Of a stretch of 64,000 nt of DNA, positions 3,040 through 63,377 are shown in pieces. Position numbers and translations under genes: made by a program. Origin of the DNA: Rhodopirellula sp. P2. GTDB taxonomy: Bacteria; Planctomycetota; Planctomycetia; Pirellulales; Pirellulaceae. The notes under the pieces are model-generated. The model was not told the origin of the DNA and did no database searches. It saw only the letters and a program-made list of their open reading frames with translations. Where the stretch lies: assembly GCF_028768465.1 (NCBI RefSeq), contig NZ_CP118225.1, forward strand, positions 6,305,001-6,369,000, read 5' to 3'. How positions within the stretch are numbered: position 1 is the stretch's first letter; every line of letters begins with the position of its first letter.

Positions 3040-4004
3040 AGGTGATAATCAGCGTTCGGCGGCAGGGTTGTAGGCGGGATTCAAGCAGTGTAGATCGAAC
3101 AGGATCACTTGAAAGGATGGTGGTGAGTCTCGGCGAAACGGTACTCGCACGAGGCACCCGTGATTGTCCTCCTGAACGGGGATCTTTTTGCGGGCAATTT
3201 TTCTTGATCGATTCGTTTTTTCGAAAATCACGCTCGTTTTTCGGTAACAACGCACAAGATTACAGCGATGTCGGGATGACACTGTTGATGGCTGCTCGTC
3301 AAAGATCGACGGGGCCAGTCATCATCCGCATCGCGACATGCTGCCCCCAATGGAAGCGGTGCCACTGGTTGCCGAGTATCCTGGCGGAAACTTGAGCGAG
3401 ATTCAGTTTGAAATTTCGGTCTCGTCAACTTGACTCCCACCCTTGCTGTTCAGTCTTTCCATGCAGATTTTTGTTCGTGCGTTGTTTGTCGTGGCTCTGG
3501 TGGCCGGTGGTGCAGGCGTTTGTTGCCAAGCAGACGATGTCGCATCGAACTCATAGGCCGAAACGGGAGGGGGCGGAAAACGAGAATTCTGTGGGAGGGC
3601 AATCCGCGCTGCCTCCCATGCCCGGCCCTCACCCTCGCGTACGCCTGAACGGCGTCGCTCGAACTCTCCCCAAACTTCGTTTCGGGAGAGGTGCGTCAGG
3701 TGGAAAAACACCAGCAAGTGGTATCGAGAACTGCGACACCCCAAAGCGAGCCGGCGGCCTCTCGATGGACTTGGCACGATCGTGCTGGTCGCTTGCGCAA
3801 TCGCAAAGGTTTGCAGTCACGCCCCCAGCTAGACTGGGGCTGTCCTGGCGACGCTAGTGCGCCGAACGAAGGTTTTCACATCCCTTAGCCGAATTTCGCG
3901 TGAACGAAGATGGCTGGCAAGATCGACGCCAGTTGCCCCGTTTTTCGTGGATTTGACCTGCTAGGGGGTGATCTGCTGAGCTTTCCTCCATCCTGGTTCG
4001 ACCA
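3040..4004. other. Long intergenic region with gene remnants
   Basis: Nearly 1 kb without an intact gene. At 3461-3556 there is a 31-codon signal-peptide-like reading frame (separate entry). From about 3560 to 3860 the sequence is a low-information stretch containing CCCTCACCCTCGCGTACGCC and a later CTCTCCC / GGGAGAGG inverted pair around 3664-3692. It looks like an intergenic repeat, but no second copy was found in this window. The 5' part should contain the promoter of the minus-strand operon that begins at 3039; no clear hexamers can be assigned. Confidence 0.5.
3461..3556 (+). pseudogene. Signal-peptide stub, 31 codons
   Basis: ATG to TAG encodes 31 residues beginning MQIFVRALFVVALVAGG, continuing AGVCCQADD and ending after DVASNS. 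This is a complete secretion signal (basic start, about 13 hydrophobic residues, Cys near a possible lipobox or cleavage site) with almost nothing after it. The likeliest reading is the remaining 5' end of an exported protein gene whose body was deleted, next to another deletion remnant at 4005. A genuine small exported peptide cannot be excluded. Confidence 0.4.
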
Positions 4005-7289: not shown

Positions 7290-7982
7290 GTGAGCGAAAC
7301 ATTTCACTTGAATGCTCCTCCCGGTTTTCGCGGATTGCATCCAGATCTGCCCATCGAAACTTATCACCGGCACCTTCCACACTGGCGGCAGGCCGGAGCG
7401 ACCTATGCGATCACATTTCGGCTGGCAGACTCAATTCCACAAGAACAACTTCGAAGCCTTCAACGATGGCGAGAGATATGGGAGCGATCGAACGGACAAC
7501 CACAAACAGACGCCGATTGGGAACAACTCGCGAAACAGATCACCCACCGTACCGAAGCCTGGCTGGACGAAGGCTACGGCGAGTGCGTGTTTGAGAACCC
7601 TACGTTAGCCGATGTGATGGCAAAGTCGATGTTGCAGTTCCAAAACGATCGTTATGTCACGTCTTGTTATTGCGTGATGCACAATCACGTTCACCTTGTG
7701 ATGAAACCACTGGGTGACCAACTTCTTGAAAAGATTCTTCGAGACTTGAAGGGGTATGTCAGCCGCATGGTCAATCGAGAACGGCATCGAGAGGGTCCCC
7801 TTTGGACGCAAGAAAGCCACGACCGAATCATCCGAGATGAAGAACATCTCTATCGCGTCATTCAGTACATCGGCAACAACCCAAAGAAGGCCGGTTATGA
7901 ACAGCGGCAATGGGTTCGCTGGATTCACCCCGATTGGGAATCGAAAGGCTGGGGATTTCGGGATTCGAGAGACAGGAAATGA
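7290..7982 (+). CDS. rayT: REP-associated tyrosine transposase (RAYT, Y1/HUH family)
   Basis: 230 residues from GTG at 7290, chosen because AAGGAG lies at 7278-7283, six nt upstream; longer upstream starts would run back through the REP hairpins. The HUH motif is H131-N-H133-V-H135 (VMHNHVHLV) and the likely catalytic tyrosine is Y156 in LKGYVSRMVN. The C-terminus (VIQYIGNNPKKAGY) is typical of RAYTs. RAYTs are single-strand-specific HUH nucleases that recognise REP hairpins with their 5' tetranucleotide. REP clusters flank the gene on both sides, which strongly supports the call. Confidence 0.92.
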   Translation: MSETFHLNAPPGFRGLHPDLPIETYHRHLPHWRQAGATYAITFRLADSIPQEQLRSLQRWREIWERSNGQPQTDADWEQLAKQITHRTEAWLDEGYGECVFENPTLADVMAKSMLQFQNDRYVTSCYCVMHNHVHLVMKPLGDQLLEKILRDLKGYVSRMVNRERHREGPLWTQESHDRIIRDEEHLYRVIQYIGNNPKKAGYEQRQWVRWIHPDWESKGWGFRDSRDRK

Positions 7983-47328: not shown

Positions 47329-47774
47329 GGAAGTTCTCTGGGAAAAGATCCAAACGGACGGGACGAGAACGGGAATGGCCGGGGAGTTGCCGGATGCATT
47401 CTGCTCGCCGGTTTTCGGGCAAGCGAGTGACCGCTGTCACGACCAAAAGTTCGCGGTCCATCGTACTCGATCAGCGAGCCCAACGCACCCGGAAAGGGGC
47501 GGCATTGCCCCTTGTTCTAGCTTCTCGGAGCTCCGTTTTCCTTTGCGAGCGACTGCTTCGATCGCCCCACGCCTGGTTTTGTCGGATGCGGAGGAGGTTG
47601 GCAGCAGTCTTTCGGCATCGGAACCGTTTTTGAAAACCTCACGCTTCCGTCGGAAAACCGGGACGAAGGTTGGACCGCGAAAACTGGACGGGTCACACAG
47701 ACAATGCGGCGTTGGTATTGGTTCTGTCCCACGTCCAATGGGCTGGCCCTTACGGAGAGCACTCAAAGAACACT

Positions 47775-47864
47775 AGGACCGCCCCTTTGGGGCTTTGCAA
47801 TCTTGGTCCCGCCGTAACCCAGGGCGTTGCCCTGGGCTTTCATAGGTCTGCCCCTTTGGGGCGA
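47775..47864. repeat. Triple-hairpin GC-rich repeat cassette
   Basis: Runs AGGACCGCCCCTTTGGGGCT ... CCCAGGGCGTTGCCCTGGG ... GCCCCTTTGGGGCG: two GCCCC/GGGGC hairpins flank a CCCAGGGC/GCCCTGGG hairpin with loop GTT. The stretch matches 63172-63265 over its whole length, including the spacer TCTTGGTCCCGCC. The order and spacing of the three hairpins are conserved while their loops differ (TTT here, CGTT-type there), the pattern expected of a structured repeat. Confidence 0.75.
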
Positions 47865-47878
47865 ATGTTCAGCGAAAG

Positions 47879-62861: not shown

Positions 62862-62996
62862 CCGGGGCCAACGCCCAAGCGGCTCAGATACCCGACGACA
62901 GTTGAGGACAACTGTTCGAAGCAGGTACGCAGGAGTCATGGGGTATGTGGGCCGTTGGCGTTAGCCACGGTTTTCACGCACAACCGTGGCTCACGC
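62862..62996. repeat. Palindromic-repeat half copy, short hairpin, and left arm of an interrupted palindrome
   Basis: 62862-62895 holds a half copy (GGGAACCGGGGCCAACGCCC, AAGCGGCTCAGA). 62897-62917 is an imperfect copy of the GAACAGTT/AACTGTTC hairpin. From about 62919 (AAGCAGGTACGCAGGAGTCA, ATGTGGGCCGTTGGCGTTAG, CCACGGTT ... AACCGTGGCT) runs the left arm and centre of a 127-bp palindrome. It is interrupted at GGCTCACGC (62988-62996) by the element at 62997; the rest resumes at 63324. Confidence 0.72.
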
Positions 62997-63323
62997 TGGA
63001 CTGTCAAAAGGTTAGTATTGACACGGAAAATGCGACGTTGATTTTTATTCTGTCCTACGCCCCAACGGGGCAGCTCTAAAATAGCCCCAGGCATCGCCTG
63101 GGGTTTCGTTACGGAGATTCCGACACCAGCCCCAACGGGGCGGCCCTAAGAAAGACTCCCCAAAACCCGCTAGGACCGCCCCCGTTGGGGCTTTGTATTC
63201 TTGGTCCCGCCACAACCCAGGGCGTTGCCCTGGGCTGGCATAGGGCTGCCCCGTTGGGGCGAAGTCGAGGAACGAAACCTGCGCAGTCCAAAGCGGTGTC
63301 AATACCAACCTTTTGACAGCCCA
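62997..63323. mobile_element. Putative 327-bp non-coding insertion element (MITE-like)
   Basis: Left end TGGACTGTCAAAAGG then TTAGTATTGACAC; right end, read on the minus strand, TGGGCTGTCAAAAGG then TTGGTATTGACAC: 28-nt terminal inverted repeats with two mismatches. Immediately outside are GGCTCACGC (62988-62996) and GGCTAATGC (63324-63332), an apparent 9-bp target duplication with two changes. The intact palindrome family has GGCTAACGC at this spot. The interior has no open frame and carries several GCCCC/GGGGC hairpins, including a segment (63172-63265) also present at 47775-47864. It would depend on a transposase elsewhere. Confidence 0.65.
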
Positions 63324-63377
63324 GGCTAATGCCCAAACGGCTCACATGGTTGTGCTTGATCATTCCTGCCGACTTTT
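63324..63377. repeat. Right arm of the interrupted palindromic repeat
   Basis: GGCTAATGCCCAAACGGCTC then ACATGGTTGTGCTTGATCAT and TCCTGCCGACTT complete the palindrome whose left part ends at 62996. Together they match the full copy at 26466-26592 once the 327-bp insert and one duplicated 9-mer are removed. Confidence 0.7.

Follow-up and report, generated by a model that had tools for sequence, protein, structure and literature searches.

Near the right end of the window, by which we mean the whole stretch of 64,000 nucleotides of Rhodopirellula sp. P2 that was analysed, lies a 327-bp non-coding element (62997..63323, + strand), which raises the questions of what moved it there and where its palindromic core came from. 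From its copies, its insertion sites and its relatives, we conclude with a probability of about 0.85 that it is a non-autonomous DDE element with a captured REP unit as its core, and that it was moved in trans. A preliminary description, made from the letters alone, had proposed a candidate MITE in a planctomycete, and this is supported by second copies, an empty site and a transposase with related ends. Its coordinates are exact, and the element is repeated at full length in the genome. The 28-nt terminal inverted repeats (62997..63024, + strand, and 63296..63323, − strand), both recovered by end-pattern matches, are of the TGTCAAAAGGTTGGTATTGACAC type and lie in an inverted stretch of 29 nt (62996-63024 / 63296-63324) that is 93% complementary. 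As is usual for MITEs, the element is short and its interior holds only palindrome-derived ORFs of up to 87 aa. The 87-aa ORF (63045-63308, minus strand) consists of translated palindromes only (SPGQRPG, APTG), and such frames may get annotated as hypothetical proteins.

A search of the genome (one contig of 7,291,416 bp) located near-full-length copies at 25 places, that of the window included, with 97-100% identity over 322-327 bp, besides eight diverged copies (84-94%, aligned over 278-326 bp) and a truncated one of 254 bp (98%); the many dispersed copies expected of a MITE are thus present. A 23-nt end pattern, allowing up to three mismatches, matched 53 times in the same genome (reversed control, 0), always inside known copies. 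The 22 full-length copies differ from their consensus by 0.82% on average, and their variable columns are more often singletons (26) than shared (8), both of which attest to a recent burst. MITEs of this kind are also present in four other genomes of the genus (G003, G004, G006 and G009). One of the same-genus genomes is that of Rhodopirellula solitaria CA85, as its locus L080 is contained in full within L122. An exact search for the ends in a collection of genome contigs, from which the own and near records may be absent, returned no locus, the full element matched plasmid records once, over 49 bp only, and Rfam had no match within 58-64 kb of the window. A diverged, shortened relative lies elsewhere in the window (47671-47867), with an end-like left terminus, TGGACCGCGAAAACTGG, and no clear right end.

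The core (63058..63263) is a REP-like unit of paired palindromes. REPs, RAYTs and REPINs have been described (PMC3733652, PMC6006769, PMC2817692 and PMC3116915). RAYT-associated REPs or BIMEs are recognised as palindrome arrays beside a Y1 transposase gene, other marks of such units being a conserved head tetranucleotide and processing by the RAYT. Such arrays were found at L159, at L160 and at L173/L191 of the own genome, and the core resembles one unit of them. At L159, in a same-genus genome, it aligns to the array flanking the Y1_Tnp gene with 72% identity over 228 nt (E 3.6e-23); at L160, in a different genus of the family, it aligns to the RAYT array with 81% over 95 nt; and in the array at the own RAYT (L173) it aligns four times, with 91% over 46 nt. 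A further core match, at L177, is merely a neighbouring MITE copy. The own RAYT with the core-like array, at G000:C1:948207-948551, is 66-68% identical to the RAYTs of L159 and L160, whereas six other RAYT-like genes of the genome, which have no such array nearby, are only 37-46% identical. The core is therefore best read, from these alignments, as a captured REP unit of that one RAYT (Y1 tyrosine transposase) subfamily. Three RAYT-like genes stand in a row with equal scores and about 1-kb spacing at G000:C1:6437942-6440280 (L168-L170), which is unusual, as RAYTs are described as single copies; the window itself contains a Y1_Tnp (IS200-like) match above the Pfam cut-off at 7665-7877 (28.7 bits against 23).

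Ends of this class enclose palindromic cores of at least three unrelated types (A, B and C), which among eight cores showed no cross-match at E ≤0.01. Both this and the likeness of the hairpins to one REP unit of a RAYT array go beyond the preliminary description. When four B- and C-type cores were compared with 13 Y1 loci of the own genome, with L159 and with L160, no match reached E 1e-3, and within these loci neither type was linked to a RAYT. In L059, L060, L062, L067, L070, L072 and others, ends of the same class frame cores made of CATCCCGGTAGGGATG or CTCTCCCCC hairpins. L066 (C type) and L077 (short A type) have exact flanking duplications, and five others that were compared have poor ones, agreeing at 3 to 7 of 9 positions.

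The structured, GC-rich hairpins that had been noted in the window element were borne out by a predicted fold of −180.7 kcal/mol (z −12.4 against shuffles). Such folding might itself be why the element was retained and multiplied, the hairpins being of use to host or element as terminators, mRNA stabilisers or a transposition cruciform, with selection on the palindromes and only a secondary likeness to REPs. In line with this, nine elements with the three unrelated cores folded with z-scores between −6.5 and −15.2; in 25 control pieces the mean was −0.38 and the lowest value −3.21. In an alignment of 19 A-type elements (that of the window and 18 of 21 diverged or relative copies; L025, L190 and L195 were dropped), mean identity was 0.89 in the core and 0.70 in the ends, and in all 171 pairs the core was the more similar part. 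The pairs lack independence, and the copies had been retrieved through whole-element similarity, both of which favour the long core. Within the core the stems were most conserved, and two spacers fell to 0.72-0.73. Against selection on the palindromes, covariation, with a term of +0.37, did not on balance favour a selected RNA structure: two-sided changes occurred at 5 of 73 base pairs, four of these five in the ends, and since the stems hardly vary, they test nothing. Gene conversion, or the retrieval of copies by whole-element similarity, could also have produced the pattern of conservation. We regard selection on the palindromes as the less likely explanation.

The insertion site bears on what moved the MITE. 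The flanks GGCTCACGC (62988..62996) and GGCTAATGC (63324..63332) had been taken for a diverged 9-bp target duplication. The orthologous locus of a sister genome (G009:C52) agrees with this: there the host palindromic repeat, of which approximately 62919..62996 and 63324..63373 (both + strand) are the left and right parts in the window, is uninterrupted and contains a single GGCTAACGC, from which both flanks have decayed. This locus provides the empty site that the preliminary description had suggested looking for in another strain, and it matches the expectation that removal of the insert and one 9-mer leaves an intact repeat. The insertion in the window thus comprised 327 + 9 bp, and both 9-mers have each changed since. 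Of 30 retrieved copies, 28 were used to count duplications; the other two are truncated or offset. The flanking 9-mers were identical in 13 of the 28, agreed at eight or more positions in 18 and at seven or more in 21, and the base just outside the duplication matched in one. In the remaining seven copies the duplications were poor (3-6 of 9); some are one-base slips and others look like the result of exchange between repeats.

Because of these duplications and the empty site, we rejected movement of the MITE by a RAYT (Y1 transposase) acting on the core, with the inverted ends as mere relics. The likeness of the core to RAYT-flanking arrays would suit such movement, but the element ends sharply at the inverted repeats and the empty site holds one 9-mer, while IS200-type transposition leaves no such duplication according to PMC2817692; RAYT mobility is highly improbable.

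Scored by flanking motifs, 17 of the 28 copies lie in the host palindromic repeat. One arm of this repeat occurs 218 times in the genome (control, 0), which at about 127 bp each amounts by our arithmetic to about 0.4% of the genome, and the MITE accordingly prefers this one palindromic repeat. Several copies elsewhere have perfect duplications, for example GGCTTGGTG (L002), GCGCAAGCC (L005) and GGCTTGCCC (L012). That the element forms part of a larger host repeat and was multiplied through recombination or duplication instead of transposition is extremely improbable and was rejected on the 9-bp duplications and the empty site, for although many copies lie in host repeats and some have mismatched flanks (e.g. 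L004, L010, L013), as conversion between repeats would give, the three just named are perfectly duplicated at unrelated sites. The host repeat itself has inverted ends of its own around AAGCAGGT (e.g. L071, about 3720-3850), and it may be an old mobile element.

The preliminary description had also suggested looking for a transposase with matching ends. A degenerate end pattern (86 matches; control 3) led to a complete IS of 1690 bp (G000:C1:6370169-6371858, corresponding to L076:2370-4059), 1.8 kb to the right of the MITE and 1.2 kb past the end of the window. Like the MITE it is inserted in a copy of the host palindromic repeat, a different one of the same genome, and it is flanked on either side by GGCTAACGC; its ends are related to those of the MITE but agree with them at only 17-19 of 28 positions. 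Its first ORF of 86 aa and its second ORF of 473 aa, in the −1 frame, overlap at a run of nine A, which suggests programmed frameshifting. The second ORF is single-copy in the genome and matched neither Pfam nor NCBIfam over cut-off, nor any PDB entry by sequence. The own genome yielded no closer autonomous partner, as all 53 end matches in it belong to known copies. Counting the own genome in both sets, 3 of 13 genomes of the genus and 12 of 296 of the order have the transposase.

The diverged members of the MITE family connect it with the IS more closely than the window element does. The right end of L067 matches the left end of the IS at 23 of 28 terminal and 26 of 34 subterminal positions (z 12; 0 of 500 shuffles), and it encodes NLRKRMAATSP, compared with KLRKRMAAASP at the C-terminus of the transposase. 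Some sister MITEs thus keep a fossil of the C-terminus of the IS orfB, and these fossils, together with the related IS, point to a candidate autonomous relative of the MITE. The A-type elements L183, L184 and L187 match the IS end with z-scores of 8.2, 7.3 and 7.7, and the right end of the window element with 17/28 + 10/34 (z 5.4). Since this last match is weak in its subterminal part, the A-type MITE is tied to the IS family mainly via its diverged members.

Relatives of the transposase were found at 33 loci in named genomes, the nearest in Rubripirellula obstinata (61%), and the family is spread over Planctomycetes, Cyanobacteria, Desulfobacterota, Gammaproteobacteria and MAGs labelled Chloroflexi and Nomurabacteria. 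Beyond the preliminary description, this family is unnamed in the libraries searched (Pfam, NCBIfam, PHROGs and plasmid annotations): six further relatives had no Pfam or NCBIfam match over cut-off, three had none in PHROGs, and in plasmid records the annotation was 'hypothetical protein' in 9 of 9 cases, and with a second query in 10 of 11, the remaining one having no feature. We searched 23 transposase loci for ends without assuming an end sequence, and found inverted ends (13-14 of the first 14 nt) with a perfect 9-bp duplication at ten of them (L117, L124, L125, L126, L129, L131, L198, L200, L201 and L202). These represent eight distinct elements, as L125/L126 and L198/L202 are each one element at different sites, which indicates movement; one Nostoc plasmid carries two copies with different duplications. 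At L125, L126, L129 and L131 an 11-bp duplication with ends one base shorter fits too, and 9 bp fits all ten. At the other 13 of the 23 loci, among them L111, which holds the closest named relative, and L199 on a plasmid, no convincing ends came out.

A structural model of the L111 protein, the 61% relative (pLDDT 84.1, pTM 0.79, 19 sequences), has an RNase H-like strand order with a helical insertion, in keeping with the RNase H-like DDE fold and all-alpha insertion of hAT and P element transposases. D111, D180, D204-x-x-H207 and E379/E382 are conserved in the family and may be catalytic. All 11 Foldseek matches of the model at E ≤0.001 (best E 7e-7) were Hermes or P element, with low TM-scores of 0.34-0.41. 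These best matches are eukaryotic, and the sequence search of the PDB had given no match. hAT duplications are 8 bp long, whereas those found here are 9 bp.

The prokaryotic Mutator-like families p-MULT 1-5 (IS256, ISH6, ISLre2, ISKra4/ISMich2) are, according to PMC3942029, also DDE transposons with 8-9 bp duplications, some of them in Planctomycetes and Chloroflexi, and ISMich2 has two ORFs with a −1 frameshift, as predicted for the related IS. Unlike the conserved terminal cytosine described there for p-MULT, the ends found here read T(G/A)GG...A, and neither the IS transposase nor the relatives tried matched a profile of the IS256/ISKra4 families over the Pfam or NCBIfam cut-off. With the bacterial MITEs NEMIS, RUP, ERIC and Nezha the element shares its small size, lack of coding capacity, inverted ends, duplication, copy number and a related, putatively autonomous IS; unlike them, it has a core resembling a RAYT REP, its end class holds at least three unrelated palindromic cores, and its ends vary more than its core. 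The inverted palindromes of the core, which match RAYT-flanking arrays, recall the REPINs and BIMEs of RAYTs as described in PMC3116915 and PMC2817692, but here DDE-type ends frame the core, and its movement left a 9-bp duplication. The IS elements that PMC1525189 reports to target REP sequences share the strong preference for a palindromic intergenic repeat, although the MITE is non-autonomous and itself carries palindromes of another system. Neither a MITE with a RAYT REP core nor this IS family was found in the limited open-licence literature searched.

Taken as a mechanism, a transposase of the IS family would bind the 28-nt ends of the MITE, excise or copy it, and insert it at a G-rich/C-rich 9-bp sequence, for instance GGCTAACGC, so that a palindrome of the RAYT system would travel in the shell of a DDE transposon. 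As for the mover of the recent copies, the ends of the own genome's single IS are clearly diverged, and G003, G004, G006 and G009, all of which hold such MITEs, did not yield the transposase when searched. A wider reading, to which we give somewhat less than even odds, is that an unnamed, multi-phylum family of bacterial DDE IS elements with a Hermes/P-element-like fold spawns MITEs that serve as exchangeable shells: these would take up palindromic cores of other repeat systems, a RAYT REP unit being one, carry them into a third palindromic repeat and persist after their transposase is lost, constraint falling on the core and not on the ends.

The element joins two mobile systems that have been thought of apart, DDE transposons and the palindromes of RAYT/REP systems, and as a composite it makes the spread of REP units testable. 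An IS family passed over by annotation pipelines suggests that many transposons and MITEs go unrecognised.
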